Assembly (NCBI GenBank): GCA_902500825.1
Contig: CABVRX010000029.1
Location: 1 to 52,777, forward strand
Source: an uncultured Nitrospira sp.
GTDB lineage: Bacteria; Nitrospirota; Nitrospiria; Nitrospirales; Nitrospiraceae
DNA: 52,777 nucleotides
Direction: 5' to 3'
Part shown: piece after piece, positions 26,536-38,720 of the stretch
Layout: each line of letters starts with the position of its first letter
Numbering within the stretch: the first letter of the stretch is position 1
Notes under the pieces: generated by a model
Databases searched by the model: none
Seen by the model: the letters and a program-made list of their open reading frames with translations, nothing else
What the model was told of the DNA's origin: nothing
Program-made: the position numbers and the translations under genes

Positions 26536-26619
26536 TTACTCCCCGTCAATGAACACGACCTTATACATCGCTCCAAAAACAGCGGTCAGCGCAAGCAACG
26601 CCAAGAATAACGTCGTCAT
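26536..26619 (-). CDS. Single-helix membrane micro-protein 2 (27 aa), bd-oxidase locus
   Basis: A perfect ribosome site (AAGGAGGTG, 7 nt spacing) precedes an ATG that opens a 27-codon frame ending with GYxF-like sequence. The product, MTTLFLALLALTAVFG followed by AMYKVVFIDGE, is one hydrophobic helix with a short polar tail. It shares the pattern FG-x-x-Y-x-x-x-F with micro-protein 1 upstream, and both have the same tandem-repeat promoter element, so the pair looks like a tandem duplication. Position downstream of a bd-like oxidase suggests an accessory subunit comparable in size and topology to CydX or similar small oxidase subunits; this is inference. Confidence 0.65.
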   Translation of the reverse strand: MTTLFLALLALTAVFGAMYKVVFIDGE

Positions 26620-26643
26620 AGTTCTTCACCTCCTTCGCCACTA

Positions 26644-26697
26644 AGGATAAGGCTCAAATATGAATGGTGCATAATGGGATCGTGAAGAAATCTTCAT
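26644..26697 (-). promoter_or_regulatory. Tandem TTCAT-type promoter box B (micro-protein 2)
   Basis: On the minus strand the half-sites are TTCAC (26682-26686), ATTAT (26671-26675) and TTCAT (26660-26664), each 11 bp apart, with an inverted ATGAA 11 bp further upstream (26693-26697). Ten nt after the last half-site is the -10 hexamer TATCCT (26644-26649). The start codon of micro-protein 2 is 25 bp downstream of the -10. About 40 of 52 positions agree with box A. Confidence 0.65.
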
Positions 26698-26780
26698 AAT
26701 TCAACCGCCCTACTTAGGAAGTTCAACTGCTGCCGAACGCTGGACAGCATTGACCCAGGACTCAGCCAGGTCCAACCACG

Positions 26781-26861
26781 TCACTTACTGGCGAACTGCA
26801 ACATGGCGTACGATATTCCGAATATGGAGACCAATATGAACACTTCGATGAAGGAAATCAT
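26781..26861 (-). CDS. Single-helix membrane micro-protein 1 (26 aa), bd-oxidase locus
   Basis: The ATG at 26861 is preceded by AAAGGGGGTGACC, a strong ribosome site. The 26-residue product begins MISFIEVFILVSIFG and ends ISYAMLQFASK. It is a single predicted transmembrane helix with one acidic residue near the N-terminus and a Lys at the C-terminus. It lies 168 bp after the bd-like oxidase stop, with its own promoter box between, so it may be transcribed both with the oxidase and separately. The shared FG-x-x-Y pattern links it to micro-protein 2. Too short for ordinary gene callers. Confidence 0.65.
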   Translation of the reverse strand: MISFIEVFILVSIFGISYAMLQFASK

Positions 26862-26898
26862 GATGGTTTGGTCACCCCCTTTCACTTTCCTACCTATA

Positions 26899-26952
26899 TA
26901 CATACGCTCAGAAGATGAAGCCTCCATGATGAGATCGTGAAGAATGCTTCAT
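26899..26952 (-). promoter_or_regulatory. Tandem TTCAT-type promoter box A (micro-protein 1)
   Basis: Minus-strand half-sites TTCAC (26937-26941), ATCAT (26926-26930) and TTCAT (26915-26919) are spaced exactly 11 bp. An inverted ATGAA (26948-26952) lies one further period upstream. After 10 nt comes TATGTA (26899-26904), overlapping a longer TATATA run. The start codon follows 38 bp downstream of the -10. Confidence 0.65.
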
Positions 26953-27029
26953 AATTCGCGCCTGAATGCTAGGTTCCAGCAGTGGAGGCTTGGCGCTGAA
27001 CATGATCCAGTGATCGCCCTCGGACCCGC

Positions 27030-28949
27030 TTAGCGCTGTATGGCTGGGACCATAGCGGGAACCGAGACTGCTGTGTCCTGTGGGACGGTCTTGGCGCCGA
27101 GCGACGCCAGCCAGAAGACGAACAGAATGCTTATCCAGAAGAACAGGACGTTCAACGAAATCATGTTGGCGGCAAAGCCCACCGTATGGGTGTAAGCCCA
27201 AGGTGAGTTGTCGCGCATAATCTCGTTGACATGCCAGAACAAGCGCACCGAGGAGCGGATATAGCCCATCAAGGCCATCATCCATGTGAACTCCGTCGCC
27301 AACATGATGAGCGCGTACTGAGACCGCACCGTCATCTTGCCCCATTCCACCGGCCCAGCCTGGTTAGCGCCCTTCAGCATGGCGAGGTTGAGGGCCGTCA
27401 TGAAGATCAGGCACGACAGCGTCGTGGCGACCTGCGGGACGGACAATCCGACTCGCACGTTAGCGGGGATGTAATACCCATACACGGCCAGCCAGATGAT
27501 GTTGACAAAGGCCACCGTGAAAAAGGTCCCCATGAAGATGTTTCCGAACTTCGCCCAGGATACCGTCGGGATCTTGTTGCCGCGCTGGTACCAGATGAAG
27601 CTCAAGATCGTCACGACGATCATGACGTTGATGCCGCCGTTCTTCGCCGACATGACACCGAAGTTGCCGATCACCGGATGCTGCTGGCCGCCCATGGCCT
27701 TCAGCTCGGCCGGTGTCATGACCATCGTGTGCGGTGTGATGAAGACCAAGAAACCGACGATCATCAGGAACAACAGATATTTCACGTAGCGCATATACTT
27801 TTCGGCCCCGCGCATGCGTTCCATGCACTGCCAGAGGTAATAACTGGTGGTGAGGAAGAGAGCGCCGATCATCGTCGCCTGGATGATGAAGAGCCAGGCC
27901 AGCAGGCCGCCCATCAGCGTGATCCCCATCTGTTGCCGATAGGCATAGATCTCGCGCATCAGCCAGTAGCCGGCGAACGGGAGCGGAATGAGAAACAATA
28001 CCGCGATGAACATGGCGACATAGCCCATCCAGTCATAGTGCGCCCGCTCGTCGTTCGTCTTCGCCGCCAAAAACCGATAGGCGGCGTAGGCGGCGACGAC
28101 GCTCCCGCCGAACGCCATGTTCCCCAGCATCCGGTGGAGGTTCAGCGGATTCCAGAGCGCCGTGTGGATCACATGCCAGATGTTGCCGAGGTAGCGGCCT
28201 TCCTCGTCCACCCCGGCCGGGGACATCATGAACGCGATCCAGCTGTTGGCGAGGAACATGAGCACCGTCCCGACCACGTTCAACACCACCGACATGCTCA
28301 GGTGAATCCATTTCAGGAACCCTTCACTCATCTTCTCCCACCCGTAATAATAGATGTACAGAATGCCGCTCTCCGCGACGAACAGGAGCGCGTAGAGATG
28401 CATGACGGGCCGGAAGATGCTGGAGAGATAACCGAAGAACGACGGATAGAGGGTCAGAAACGTGAACAAGAGGATGCCGCCGAGAATCGCGGTCAGCGAG
28501 TATGCGGTCAAGCTGATCTTGATGAAGTCGTAGGCCAACCGGTCGTAGCGTTTGCCGAGGGTTCGATCCTTGGTCACCATGCCGAGAAACTCGATGATCA
28601 TGCAGAAAATCGGGACCGCCAGCACGAAGCTCCCGTAGTACAGGTGCTGCTGGTTTGCGAACCAGATCAGCACCCGGCTCTCGAAGTTGTACCGAGGATA
28701 GTGCTGCTGGTCATCGGCTGTCTTGGGCGCCGGCAGCCCGCTCACGATCCCCTCGGTCTTGTAGTACACATCCCGCCCCTTCTCGACATTCGACTCGGTG
28801 GCAGTCAGGGCTGAATCGGGCTCCGCTGCCCAGACCTGCATGCCTACGATCACAGGTTGCGCCAGCAAAGACGCCAAGGCCAAGAGCAAGCAGAATATAG
28901 TGGTCCATGTTGTTATCCTCCTCAATGATCGGCTCAACAAACTTTCCAT
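27030..28949 (-). CDS. Cytochrome bd-like oxidase membrane protein of the Nitrospira type
   Basis: The start is the ATG at 28949 (MESLLSRSLRR), 8 nt after AGGAGG; upstream in-frame ATGs overlap that ribosome site. The 639-aa protein has a signal/anchor segment (FCLLLALASLLAQPVIVGM), a periplasmic stretch, and about 13-14 transmembrane helices. FESRVLIWFANQQHLYYGSF is the bd-type first helix with a candidate haem-ligand His, and ANSWIAFMMSPAGVDEEG recalls the CydA core. Proteins of this kind occur in several copies in Nitrospira and have been proposed as terminal oxidases of nitrite oxidation. Whether this copy is the main oxidase cannot be told. The neighbours are a sigma-54 activator upstream and two micro-proteins downstream, all on the minus strand. 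Confidence 0.82.
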   Translation of the reverse strand: MESLLSRSLRRITTWTTIFCLLLALASLLAQPVIVGMQVWAAEPDSALTATESNVEKGRDVYYKTEGIVSGLPAPKTADDQQHYPRYNFESRVLIWFANQQHLYYGSFVLAVPIFCMIIEFLGMVTKDRTLGKRYDRLAYDFIKISLTAYSLTAILGGILLFTFLTLYPSFFGYLSSIFRPVMHLYALLFVAESGILYIYYYGWEKMSEGFLKWIHLSMSVVLNVVGTVLMFLANSWIAFMMSPAGVDEEGRYLGNIWHVIHTALWNPLNLHRMLGNMAFGGSVVAAYAAYRFLAAKTNDERAHYDWMGYVAMFIAVLFLIPLPFAGYWLMREIYAYRQQMGITLMGGLLAWLFIIQATMIGALFLTTSYYLWQCMERMRGAEKYMRYVKYLLFLMIVGFLVFITPHTMVMTPAELKAMGGQQHPVIGNFGVMSAKNGGINVMIVVTILSFIWYQRGNKIPTVSWAKFGNIFMGTFFTVAFVNIIWLAVYGYYIPANVRVGLSVPQVATTLSCLIFMTALNLAMLKGANQAGPVEWGKMTVRSQYALIMLATEFTWMMALMGYIRSSVRLFWHVNEIMRDNSPWAYTHTVGFAANMISLNVLFFWISILFVFWLASLGAKTVPQDTAVSVPAMVPAIQR

Positions 28950-33288: not shown

Positions 33289-34116
33289 TCAGTAGCCGCT
33301 ACGTGCGGTCGAACGGGCTATTTGGCGGGAAAATGGATCGAGGATGCTCTTGGGTGCGTCGTTCCAGATCACGTCCGCCAGGTTCGACATGCGCGACACG
33401 GTCTGCGCTGCTACGCCACCCGCGGCGCCGAACAGCCCGCACCAGCCTAACGCTACGAAGCCCCAATGTAATGGGGCGGCGAACATTTCATCGACGAACC
33501 AGAACGCATGCCCCCACTCGTTCAACCCCACGTTCGGCAGGATGAACATTGGCCCCACCACCGCCGCCACTAATGGAAACGATGTGGCTTGCGCATACAA
33601 GGGCAGCCTGGTCTGCGCGTACAGATAGCTGGCCACCGCGCAGGTAATGTACAGCGGGAACGTGCCGTAGAACGCCACGATGTGGCTTGCTGTGAAGCTC
33701 GTGTCTCGAATGATCACTTGGTGCCACGCCGCATCCTGCTCCAGCGTCAAGCTGCCGGCGAAGTACACGCCGAACATGTAGCAGGAGAGCCAGCCCATCC
33801 AGTAAAAATACCGCTTCAATTCCAGTTTCGGATCCAAGTCGGCTAGCGTGCGGTCACGCGTGACCCAGATCCACCCGATTGCGACCGCAAAGAAGGTTGC
33901 GTTGGCCAGAATGTTAAACCGCCACAGCCCCATCCACACTGAGTCAAACTCAGGTGTCATGGAGTCCAAGCCGTGCGAGTAGCCATAAGTCCGCTGGTAC
34001 AGAAGCCAGAACGTGATGACCCCCAGCATCGCGAGCCAACCGATTTTGGCCGGCCTGGAGTCATACCACTGAGAGATATCGTATTCTCGTCCGCTAGAAA
34101 TACGAGTTGATGCCAT
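33289..34116 (-). CDS. amoC: Ammonia monooxygenase subunit C, orphan copy
   Basis: The 275-aa membrane protein is AmoC/PmoC throughout: [67 protein letters not shown] and [18 protein letters not shown]. The copper-site residues of the CuC/CuD region in the methane enzyme, Asp-x3-His-x12-His, are present as D128, H132 and H145. An AAGGAGAT ribosome site precedes the ATG. No amoA or amoB is adjacent, so this is a singleton amoC; orphan amoC copies are known in ammonia oxidisers, where at least one is stress-induced. The promoter box 182 bp upstream and the UspA and Rnk genes downstream point to regulated, stress-linked expression (inference). Confidence 0.93.
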
Positions 34117-34159: not shown

Positions 34160-34240
34160 TTAGGAAGCTGAGGGGGTCTGGTTGTGGACATCGAAGACGA
34201 GCGCCGTGCGATGCCTGCCATATTGAGACAACGTCATCAT
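34160..34240 (-). CDS. Possible 26-codon leader ORF upstream of amoC
   Basis: GGAAGGAGACC precedes ATGATG and a 26-codon frame (MMTLSQYGRHRTALVFDV...) that ends 43 bp before amoC. It is polar, not membranous. It starts about 42 bp after the predicted -10 of box C, the same layout as the micro-protein promoters. It may be a translated leader of the amoC mRNA, a small protein, or a chance ribosome site. No homologue is known to me. Confidence 0.35.
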   Translation of the reverse strand: MMTLSQYGRHRTALVFDVHNQTPSAS

Positions 34241-34281: not shown

Positions 34282-34335
34282 AGAATAACGAGCCATCATG
34301 AAATCAGCGTGAAGGTCTCATGAAGATCTACTCAT
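34282..34335 (-). promoter_or_regulatory. Tandem TTCAT-type promoter box C (amoC leader)
   Basis: Minus-strand half-sites TTCAT (34320-34324), TTCAC (34309-34313) and TTCAT (34298-34302) are 11 bp apart. One period further upstream is an imperfect inverted half-site, ATGAG (34331-34335). Ten nt after the last half-site is the -10 hexamer TATTCT (34282-34287). This is the cleanest triple repeat of the set and the only promoter-like signal upstream of amoC. Confidence 0.65.
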
Positions 34336-35442: not shown

Positions 35443-35670
35443 TCAACGTGGCGCAAACACCGTACACCCAGGAATGAAACAAACCTTGCACTGTCTATCT
35501 TCTCTGCGTGATGTCTTGAGCCTTCCATCAAATGTCACGAAAGGGACCCTGGCCTCGGCCTTGTCGCGGGCTGTTCTTCCGGCCTGGTGCGCCCCCATTA
35601 TGATTGCTTGTCCGAGTCCCACCATGACATACGGAAAACACACCATTGAAGCTGTGATTATATTTGCCAT
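35443..35670 (-). CDS. Membrane micro-protein of 75 aa under box D
   Basis: The frame is open to a TTG at 35742, but that start would lie inside the promoter box, and the ATG at 35670 has GAGGTGG at the right distance. The product begins MANIITASMVCFPYVMVGLG followed by QAIIMGAHQAGR, giving one hydrophobic helix at about residues 4-27. A basic soluble tail follows with four cysteines or so in the last 20 residues (QCKVCFIPGCTVF), a possible metal or redox site. I recognise no family. It lies between the kinase and the secreted repeat protein on the same strand. Confidence 0.5.
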   Translation of the reverse strand: MANIITASMVCFPYVMVGLGQAIIMGAHQAGRTARDKAEARVPFVTFDGRLKTSRREDRQCKVCFIPGCTVFAPR

Positions 35671-35716: not shown

Positions 35717-35770
35717 AATATAGCGACGAGGTATGAAGTCAAAATGAATCCGAGGTGAAGATCTCTTCAC
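35717..35770 (-). promoter_or_regulatory. Tandem TTCAT-type promoter box D (75-aa micro-protein)
   Basis: Minus-strand half-sites TTCAC (35755-35759), TTCAT (35744-35748) and TTCAT (35733-35737) repeat every 11 bp, with an inverted GTGAA (35766-35770) one period upstream. After 10 nt comes TATATT (35717-35722), a near-consensus -10. The start codon at 35670 follows about 47 bp later. Confidence 0.65.
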
Positions 35771-35951: not shown

Positions 35952-37388
35952 TTAGGCAGGAACCATTTGCTGAGCGAGGGCCGGTAAACGAAGGGTAAAG
36001 ACGGAACCTTTGTTGACGTCGCTTGTAACGGAAATGCTCCCGCCATGGGCATCCATGATTTCCTTCACGATCGGAAGCCCAAGCCCGGTACCGGCGGAAT
36101 CTTTCGCGCGGGCCCAATCGGTGCGGTAGAATCGCTCGAACAGGTGGGGAATGTTCTCCGGCTCGATTCCGTGGCCTGTATCCTCGACCGATACCGCCAC
36201 TTGTTGATCCACGGTCTCTAGGCAGATAGAGACTACTCCACCGGACGGAGTGTAGCGCAGCGCGTTATCGAGGAGATTGATCAACGCTTGTTTGAGCCAT
36301 TGCGCATCACCGAGAACGGATGGAACTGGTTGGGGTTCGAAGCTCAACGTAATCTGGTGGTCATCTGCCAGCAAGGTCAGCTCGTCCACGATTTCCTGAA
36401 TAAGAGGCTCCAGAGCGAGAGGCACAAGATTGACCGGAGGTTTGCTACTGGTGAACTTGGCGAGCGTCAACAGAGGGCGGGTCAAGGCGATAAGCCGATC
36501 CACTTGCTGGAGGTTGTTGAGCAGCACTTCGCGATATTCGTCGGTGGTCCTCGCTTTCATGAGCGCGACCTCCAGGTTGCCTTGTAGGATGGTCAGGGGG
36601 GTCTTCATCTCATGAGCCGCGATCTCGCAGAAGTTCCGTTGGACCTCGCTGCTTCGTTGGAACTGATCCAACATGGAATTGACCGCCTGGGTGAGTCGCC
36701 GAAATTCGCGATAGGGTGAATCCATCGTCAGTCGTTTCCCAAGGTCGGCTTCCGACATAGTTTCGGCGCCCGTACACAAAGCGTCGATCGGGGCCATCAC
36801 TTTCTTTGCCAGCCCGAGGCTGCCGACCCATGCCAGGATAAGAGTGGCCCCGGATCCGAGGGTGAGCAGAAACACGAGGCCATTCAGCGTTTCCTGGTAA
36901 TGGAGTAATGAGGCTTCCGCTTGCAGAATATACCGCTTATGGCTTTTGCCTAGGAGGAAGAGAAACAGGTGCCGCGCGGGCGTCCCATCAGGCGCGTCGA
37001 GTGTCTCGAACAGGATCGTCTTAAGACGGACCTGTTCCAGCACATGAGGGGGGAGCGGCCCTTGCACGGTTGCGTGAGGATTTCTCCACAAAAGCGAGCC
37101 GTCGGTTGAAAAGACGCGAAGGGCATGGGTCACGTCGGGCAGTACGCGCGGTTCCGTGATGCTTCGGGTCAGTTCGTTGGTCGGAGCGGCGTCCTTGCCG
37201 CTCTGCTCAAAGAATTCAGGATGCCTATCCACAAACTCGGCCAGGGTTTCCGCCAACACGAGCAGCCGTCCATCCACAAAACGCTGCAGCAAGATCTCGC
37301 TCGCGGCATACACGAGCGCAGAAAACACGAGGAGTCCTGCCATCAAGACGATGGCGGACCAGCTGATCAAGCTGCGCAGGGATTTCAT
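35952..37388 (-). CDS. Sensor histidine kinase, heavy-metal-sensor-like architecture
   Basis: The 478-aa kinase has TM1 at about 9-31, a periplasmic sensor region of about 135 residues, TM2 at about 169-191, then HAMP, HisKA with the phospho-accepting His259 in AAHEMKTPLTILQG, and a HATPase domain (N box INLLDNALRYTPSGG, then VEDTGHGIEPENIPHLFERF and GTGLGLPIVKEIM). The layout resembles CusS/CopS-type sensors, but no metal-binding cluster is obvious in the periplasmic part. Its ATG overlaps the stop of the response regulator gene by 4 bp, indicating translational coupling. A C-terminal relic of a paralogue remains at 34422-34600. Confidence 0.93.
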   Translation of the reverse strand: MKSLRSLISWSAIVLMAGLLVFSALVYAASEILLQRFVDGRLLVLAETLAEFVDRHPEFFEQSGKDAAPTNELTRSITEPRVLPDVTHALRVFSTDGSLLWRNPHATVQGPLPPHVLEQVRLKTILFETLDAPDGTPARHLFLFLLGKSHKRYILQAEASLLHYQETLNGLVFLLTLGSGATLILAWVGSLGLAKKVMAPIDALCTGAETMSEADLGKRLTMDSPYREFRRLTQAVNSMLDQFQRSSEVQRNFCEIAAHEMKTPLTILQGNLEVALMKARTTDEYREVLLNNLQQVDRLIALTRPLLTLAKFTSSKPPVNLVPLALEPLIQEIVDELTLLADDHQITLSFEPQPVPSVLGDAQWLKQALINLLDNALRYTPSGGVVSICLETVDQQVAVSVEDTGHGIEPENIPHLFERFYRTDWARAKDSAGTGLGLPIVKEIMDAHGGSISVTSDVNKGSVFTLRLPALAQQMVPA

Positions 37389-38068
37389 GTAGAGACGTCC
37401 GGCTCTTCGAGCATATACCCGGCTCCGCGCACCGTGGCAATCAAGGGCGGCGAAAAGTCCCGGTCGATCTTCGCGCGGAGGGCTCGAATGTGCGCATCGA
37501 CGATATTCGTCATGGGGTCATAACTGATGTCCCACACATGTTCAATGATTGCGGTTCGGGTGAGCACGCGATTCTTGTTCCGCAGGAGAAACTCGAGCAG
37601 GGCATACTCCTTGTTCGTCAGGGAGATTTCATGTCCTGCGCGCCAGACACGGTGAGAAGCCGGGTCTAACCGGAGGTCGGCCGCTTGAAGATGAGCAATT
37701 TGCTGGGAGCTCCCGCGGCGCAAGAGCGCCCTGATTCGGGCCAGCAATTCAGCGAAAGCGAACGGCTTCGCTAAAAATTGATCCGCGCCGGTATCGAAGC
37801 CGGAGACCTTGGTTTCCACTGTATTGCGCGCCGTTAAGAGAAGCACCGGCGTCATGATCTGCCTGTCACGAACGCGGCGGCAGAGGGTCAGGCCGTCAAG
37901 CTTGGGCAACATGACGTCCAGGATCATCAGGTCATAGGAATTGTCCAGAGCCAACGCCAAGCCCTCCTCGCCGTCTGCGGCCACGTCCACCGCATAGTGC
38001 TCTTCTTTCAATCCTTTTCTGATGAATTGAGCCAGATCCGCATCGTCTTCAACGAGCAGAATTCTCAT
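37385..38068 (-). CDS. OmpR/PhoB-family response regulator
   Basis: The 227-aa regulator has a receiver domain with the acidic pair EDDAD, phospho-accepting Asp51 in MILDVMLPKLDG, the Thr in LLLTARN and the Lys in FLAKPFAF. A winged-helix DNA-binding domain follows (about 130-222), with HRVWRAGHEISLTNKEYALLE and TRTAIIEHVWD. OmpR-family dimers bind direct repeats with about 11-bp spacing, which matches the tandem boxes found at four promoters in this block. It is co-transcribed with the histidine kinase. The link to the boxes is inferred from geometry and proximity. Confidence 0.93.
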   Translation of the reverse strand: MRILLVEDDADLAQFIRKGLKEEHYAVDVAADGEEGLALALDNSYDLMILDVMLPKLDGLTLCRRVRDRQIMTPVLLLTARNTVETKVSGFDTGADQFLAKPFAFAELLARIRALLRRGSSQQIAHLQAADLRLDPASHRVWRAGHEISLTNKEYALLEFLLRNKNRVLTRTAIIEHVWDISYDPMTNIVDAHIRALRAKIDRDFSPPLIATVRGAGYMLEEPDVST

Positions 38069-38114: not shown

Positions 38115-38720
38115 TCAACACAGGCTACTTCTGCAATCCGTGACCACCAGATTGGTTGCTTTTTCCTCAGCATCAAGGTCAAGGGTCAGCCAGGCCATGC
38201 CCACCGCTCGCTCATCCTGGTGGGCTCCGCCGCTCCCTTCTAAGGGGCTGACGACATAATAGCGGCCAGCAGGAACTTTTGTGAACCAAAAGTGACCGGT
38301 TGGGTTGGCTCTCGTCATACGAAGATAGGGAATGAGGCGTTTATCACTCAGCAGTTGAGCCATGACTGCGCGAAGGCATTCCGTGGGCGACTCCTGAGTC
38401 ATGGGAGGCTCCGAGGACTTTGAGGGGCAGGAATACTCTCTCACATATTTGTCGAACCAAGAGCGCGTATAGGAAACCATTGGGATCAAGTAGATCGACG
38501 CCCCGGCCTGAGTCACGGCTTTTCCGGAGGATGCGCGCAAGAACACCTGTCCAGCCGCGCTTCCCCGACCTTTCGCCCTGTAAGCGAAGAGTTCTTTCTC
38601 ATTGAAGATCGGCGGAGTCGATGAGCCCGATACCGCCGCCTGTACCGGCGCCACGGAGAAGCAGGTAATCAGCACCAATCCGGCAAGCCAGCACCTAAGT
38701 TGCCTGTCACGCCGCATCAT
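38115..38720 (-). CDS. Secreted hypothetical protein with a carboxypeptidase-regulatory-like fold pattern
   Basis: The 201-aa protein has a signal peptide (LRCWLAGLVLITCFSVAPVQA). The mature part contains GQVFLRASSGKAVTQAGASIYLIP and GHFWFTKVPAGRYYVVSPL, the strand pattern of a carboxypeptidase-regulatory-like or transthyretin-like beta sandwich. No enzyme motif is seen. Its start overlaps the FTR gene end by 4 bp, so the two are coupled, and the response regulator gene follows after 46 bp. The role is unknown; an envelope sensor or adhesin is possible. Confidence 0.7.
   Translation of the reverse strand: MMRRDRQLRCWLAGLVLITCFSVAPVQAAVSGSSTPPIFNEKELFAYRAKGRGSAAGQVFLRASSGKAVTQAGASIYLIPMVSYTRSWFDKYVREYSCPSKSSEPPMTQESPTECLRAVMAQLLSDKRLIPYLRMTRANPTGHFWFTKVPAGRYYVVSPLEGSGGAHQDERAVGMAWLTLDLDAEEKATNLVVTDCRSSLC

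Follow-up and report, generated by a model that had tools for sequence, protein, structure and literature searches.

The window analysed here, a stretch of 52,777 nt, is contig C29 of a Nitrospira genome of 3.79 Mb that is 99.8% complete. Three AmoC-family genes are present in this genome, which makes it likely that the source organism is a complete ammonia oxidiser (comammox). Two frames of 27 and 26 codons, designated microgenes A and B, lie downstream of a bd-like oxidase gene on the same strand, and each is preceded by a predicted operator/promoter box (Table 1). Between B and a sensor histidine kinase gene lies an island that includes the oxidase, a sigma-54 activator, a universal stress protein and a lone amoC. 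The comparison set comprised 79 genomes of the genus, mostly metagenome-assembled, and all results derive from sequence; coding status, cassette structure, the linkage of box and kinase and the presence of the box at amo genes were computed directly.

Table 1. Features of the window discussed in the text
Feature	Coordinates	Strand	Remarks
Microgene A, 27 aa, single membrane helix	26536..26619	-	Relatives in about 24 genus genomes; in-frame dN/dS 0.20 (19 sequences)
Predicted operator/promoter box of A (TGAAGATTTCTTCACGATCCCATTATGCACCATTCAT)	26660..26696	-	77 nt upstream of start codon
Microgene B, 26 aa, single membrane helix	26781..26861	-	Strong profile matches in 43 of 79 genomes; in-frame dN/dS 0.21 (52 sequences)
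Predicted operator/promoter box of B (TGAAGCATTCTTCACGATCTCATCATGGAGGCTTCAT)	26915..26951	-	90 nt upstream of start codon
bd-like oxidase	27030..28949	-	Pfam PF01654; lineage-specific second copy, near B in four genomes
Lone amoC (ammonia monooxygenase subunit C)	33289..34116	-	Pfam PF04896, 339 bits
Non-hydrophobic 26-codon frame (MMTLSQYGRHRTALVFDVHNQTPSAS)	34160-34240	-	After degenerate box, ahead of lone amoC
Degenerate box, 3 mismatches	34298..34334	-	Upstream of lone amoC
Predicted box-driven small gene (gene 3), 75 aa (MANIITASMVCFPYVMVGLGQAIIMGAHQAG... / MANIITASMVCFPYVMVGLGQAII...)	35443..35670	-	Box-preceded relatives in several further genomes
Third box	35733..35769	-	About 180 nt downstream of kinase stop codon; zero mismatches to pattern
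Sensor histidine kinase	35952..37388	-	Catalytic core most similar to CusS
OmpR-family response regulator, proposed binder of box	37385..38068	-	Regulator-kinase operon
Conserved secreted protein	38115..38720	-	In regulator-kinase operon

Coding status and spread of the microgenes

The protein encoded by A is MTTLFLALLALTAVFGAMYKVVFIDGE, with the ribosome site GGAGGTGAAGAACT-ATG, and that encoded by B is MISFIEVFILVSIFGISYAMLQFASK, with the ribosome site GGGGGTGACCAAACCATC-ATG. B sits within a longer nominal ORF (26781-26927), and its start was placed at the ATG at 26861 according to its relatives. Each protein contains one hydrophobic stretch (best 19-residue Kyte-Doolittle mean 2.14 for A and 2.06 for B), from which a membrane helix was called by hydropathy only, and both carry FG-x-x-Y (FGAMY, FGISY), as the original prediction had described. 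Its further claim that each frame has its own copy of the promoter box was confirmed by a 46-nt repeat that is 80% identical between A and B.

The original prediction had proposed a search of other Nitrospira genomes for the same frames. At the DNA level, relatives were detected in 46 of the 79 genomes, and the alignments ran from the box and broke off at the stop codons. In 97 aligned cassettes, information was confined to the box, the ribosome site and the ORF, and the upstream and 3' flanks were essentially information-free. The in-frame dN/dS was about 0.2 for both genes, against 0.78-1.87 in shifted frames; these ratios and the sharp limits of conservation exclude chance ORFs. The data do not support a small RNA in place of a protein: variation is highest at third codon positions, and the shifted frames are unconstrained. 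The conserved residues are I5, E6, I13 and Q22 in B and K20 and D25 in A. The case that had been named as a refutation, a broken frame behind a retained promoter, occurs at a third cassette of the same genome (C2:24233), a relic with an intact box, and does not occur at A and B. A and B are genuine protein-coding genes, previously unannotated, that encode products of fewer than 50 aa under selection as proteins, each with a single helix as judged by hydropathy.

Neither protein reached the cut-off of any Pfam or NCBIfam family. The alignment of A with B by hhalign gave an E value of 2.5e-5 and a probability of 75%, scores that membrane helices make lenient, and the two genes are probably paralogous. 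The family also takes in divergent members, among them MVALIVGVLAGSAVLVVMYTALVYTVSHVHNK and MPALIILVLAVTVVLGIAYKVLSMEE. When the B profile was run across the phylum, matches were obtained in 1 of 169 genera and in none of the 168 others, so a wider origin of the family was not found. By these comparisons, A and B represent a previously unnamed family of very short membrane proteins of Nitrospira, an environmentally central genus, which gene callers probably missed because of its short length.

The view of A and B as a duplicated promoter-plus-gene cassette was borne out by extra, decayed and fused copies elsewhere. Extra B copies lie far from the kinase, beside transporters, and capture, duplication, decay and fusion of the cassette together would make a clear case of regulatory cassettes spreading within a genome. 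Several of the extra B cassettes are flanked on one side by an SDF symporter and a MarR regulator and on the other by a Na+-dependent nucleoside transporter (L182, L183, L184, L185, L189, L190, L191 and L079). A third micro-family, C (MATWIVEVFLVSAIVGLMYTVFSLGRE), which is boxless, was observed in the genome of the window at C20:47605 (L155, L175), in tandem with another hydrophobic ORF of 32 aa; its relatives elsewhere adjoin CHAD/CYTH, CBS, CorA-like and probable polyphosphate kinase genes.

The predicted operator and the neighbouring two-component system

The box follows the pattern ATGAAG-N4-CTTCAT-N5-NNTCAT-N5-NTTCAT, plus a -10, and the consensus of the 97 aligned cassettes is ATGAAGAa.TCTTCAtGaTctCaTCATgGa..cTTCAT.ttggaGg.GTAta. 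It comprises one inverted ATGAAG followed by the direct half-sites CTTCAT, NNTCAT and NTTCAT at an 11-bp period, and a TATA-like -10 lies about 10 nt past the last repeat, both in the aligned cassettes and at another target. The box core occurred twice in the window against 0.00 expected from shuffles, and the full pattern with up to 2 mismatches was found in 67 of the 79 genomes, against 0 of 79 for the reversed pattern.

With direct half-sites every 11 bp or so ahead of a -10, the box has the arrangement of OmpR/PhoB-family operators. The operators of ArcA, PhoB and OmpR likewise contain 11-bp direct repeats in three or more copies, whereas the Nitrospira box has an extra inverted half-site and the half-site CTTCAT. 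The box of CusR and HprR is a palindrome, and the palindromic core of the CusR box is similar in size to the core of the Nitrospira box, to which 11-bp direct repeats are added. For ArcA, the repeats are 11 bp apart centre to centre and often present in three or more copies (PMC3798270), and HprR and CusR of E. coli recognise the same DNA sequence (PMC8249747). The repeat described as a 'tandem promoter box' in the original prediction is real, and it is better read as an operator array of the kind bound by OmpR/PhoB-family regulators.

A candidate regulator is encoded nearby. The best NCBIfam models for the response regulator, scored with its orthologue in L055, were cztR_silR_copR, CusR, RppA and HprR, all below their curated cut-offs, and the kinase core shares 39% identity with CusS. 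The structure model of the kinase was of moderate confidence (pLDDT 68), and the PDB matches, which included CusS and HprS, mostly covered the catalytic core in the cytoplasm. No match to the sensor domain was present among the listed PDB matches, so the stimulus, by analogy copper or peroxide, is a guess.

A kinase orthologue was found in 59 of the 79 genomes. With divergent types counted, a box with a microgene was present in 58 of these 59 genomes and in 2 of the 20 that lack the kinase (G036 and G029). The divergent microgenes were sought mainly beside the kinase, and the unbiased figure is therefore that of the profile matches only, 46 of 59 against 1 of 20 (Fisher p = 6e-9, uncorrected for shared ancestry). 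Across 63 named records, the distance from the kinase stop codon to the box is in most cases about 50-400 nt. In three genomes that have only a distant kinase (G011, G014 and G023), the box precedes the operon of a related regulator itself. Boxes also occur in G006, G029 and G036, which have no kinase orthologue, suggesting that a paralogous regulator may use the box as well. In related genera and lineages, the gene behind the box that follows the kinase encodes a secreted or lipoprotein-like protein of about 211 aa instead of a microprotein. The microprotein is thus not the universal output of the box, and the tie between box and kinase appears deeper than that between box and microprotein. 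Taken with the likeness to CusRS/HprRS, this distribution strongly suggests that A and B are switched on by the neighbouring two-component system.

For regulator binding, activation rather than repression, membrane insertion and the partner, all of which we infer, the following course is proposed. The adjacent CusRS/HprRS-like system would sense an envelope signal, and the phosphorylated OmpR-family regulator would bind the array, which takes the place of a -35, and activate transcription of the cassette. Each A or B cassette, comprising operator array, -10, strong ribosome site and ORF, is autonomous. The proteins would insert into the membrane and act on a membrane partner by helix-helix contact, the leading candidates being the kinase itself, as feedback, or a transporter or enzyme in the membrane that takes part in the same response. 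The same predicted operator would also govern further genes, including amoC and amo operons. The core of this scheme, a dedicated regulator inducing single-helix inner-membrane proteins that act on a partner in the membrane, perhaps the kinase, is in our judgement quite probable.

Candidate partners and alternative roles

The usual gene order is secreted protein, response regulator, histidine kinase, box-B, box-A, SmpB, DUF721 protein, gyrA and gyrB; it was conserved in most of about 35 loci, with DUF721, gyrA and gyrB assigned by visual inspection of the sequence. In nearly every genome, relatives of A and B adjoin the two-component system and SmpB.

The most economical proposal for the partner is the kinase, whose transmembrane helices A and B might bind so as to damp it, and we advance this specific form of the scheme tentatively. 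MgrB, a protein of 47 aa, binds PhoQ (PMC2789325), which provides a precedent. MgrB is a small one-helix membrane protein under a two-component system with a sensor kinase, as is predicted for A and B, whereas the family described here is shorter (26-32 aa), with no sequence similarity to MgrB noted, and A and B lack cysteines; the kinase near them is CusS/HprS-like, not PhoQ, and its contact with A or B is hypothetical. The adjacent kinase gene, the apparent induction by its regulator, the single membrane helix and the nearly complete pairing of kinase and microgene in the genus argue for this proposal. Against it, the extra B copies are distant from the kinase, no sequence likeness to MgrB was seen, and regulation alone could explain the adjacency.

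The original prediction had compared A and B with the CydX-type subunits of bd oxidases, while finding no resemblance to CydX in sequence. The latter point stood, as no Pfam or NCBIfam family reached its cut-off, and a role linked to the oxidase did not, the oxidase being absent from 65 of the 68 microgene loci. It lies near B in four genomes, namely that of the window, G033 (ACE_NIT12), G034 (ACE_NIT13, partial) and G007 (UW-LDO-01), and orthologues of the adjacent gene (about 90-96% identity) were found only in the last three (partial in G034). The main copy (about 80%) is located at other loci in most genomes of the genus, including some with no match to A or B. On sequence comparison, the oxidase beside B is a recent, lineage-specific second copy. 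With so few orthologues, and the main copy elsewhere, a CydX-like role tied to the oxidase is unlikely. The main copy (C3) is preceded by two single-helix ORFs of about 40 aa (L002:1044-1380).

A role as CydX/CydS-type accessory subunits, the helices of which pack against a bd-like oxidase and stabilise it, was accordingly rejected as the main explanation by synteny and family searches, and we regard it as improbable. CydX and CydS share with A and B a single helix and a length of about 30 aa, and the oxidase gene of the window ends about 80 nt ahead of the box of B. In G009, a box and a gene-3 relative stand ahead of the N-terminus of the same oxidase type, and nearly all of these genomes encode bd-like oxidases in trans. 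Nevertheless, A and B carry their own promoters and match no CydX family, the linkage to an oxidase is not conserved beyond a few genomes, the main oxidase persists where A and B give no match, and it has small membrane ORFs of its own upstream.

It is similarly improbable that the box is the functional unit and the microORFs are leader peptides or baggage of a mobile promoter. Boxes also stand before other genes, the frame at C2:24233 is broken behind a retained box, as is probably the case before the lone amoC, and an A-like start appears fused to a protein of about 220 aa ahead of amoC. However, the A and B proteins are under purifying selection, and the gene that follows the cassettes at the main locus, SmpB, is convergent, leaving nothing downstream for a leader to control. 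Least probable of all is a small hydrophobic type I toxin that depolarises the membrane and is held in check by an antisense RNA: the 26-32 hydrophobic residues and the tandem, multicopy and partly decayed cassettes would suit it, but the ribosome sites are strong, specific residues are conserved in both proteins, and conservation does not go past the stop codon, the 97 cassettes sharing no 3' neighbour that could be an antitoxin gene.

Further predicted targets of the box

The box was also found upstream of ammonia oxidation genes. In 12 other genomes (G001, G004, G005, G006, G007, G017, G031, G036, G052, G064, G065 and G075), amoC or the amo operon is preceded by a box at a spacing of about 130-770 nt. 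In most of these, an ORF of about 220 aa lies between the box and amoC and starts 70-90 nt past the box; its first 20 residues are A-like and are followed by an apparent signal peptide. We read this ORF as an A cassette that has lost its stop codon and become fused to the gene that opens the amo operon, mainly from the common box and spacing and not from the A-likeness of the starts, which is weak alone (profile E about 0.04-0.08). The protein of about 220 aa belongs to no known family; it was observed behind the box, in most cases with an A-like N-terminus and, on contigs that extend far enough, ahead of amoC, at L259-L261, L264, L267-L270, L273-L275 and L278.

In the window, the frame at 34160-34240 with its degenerate box is probably a relic cassette, and a similar arrangement of degenerate box, micro-frame and lone amoC was observed in G033. 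The two other amoC copies of the genome had no box within the stretch examined. Singleton amoC genes of nitrifiers are under stress-type control, for which sigma-32 is cited in the case of amoC3 of Nitrosomonas europaea (PMC6311188); the lone amoC studied here has a predicted two-component operator instead.

These findings provide a specific candidate operator and regulator for the ammonia monooxygenase genes of comammox Nitrospira, and no description of such a regulator was found in a limited literature search. One operator of a dedicated CusRS-like system may link ammonia oxidation to the state of the membrane in these organisms, acting on amoCAB, singleton amoC and the radiating microproteins, with an A cassette captured by and fused to the first amo gene; we consider this a serious possibility, if somewhat short of an even one.

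Two minor observations concern other genes behind the box. A relative of the 75-aa box-driven protein lies directly ahead of a bd-like oxidase in G009 (L227). In the genome of the window (G000), a conserved box is located upstream of a 106-aa protein (MKEATKGLTVSTSLIPAPVKQG...) at C1:222103 (L256), and boxes like this one were also detected in G004, G006, G015-G018 and G027.
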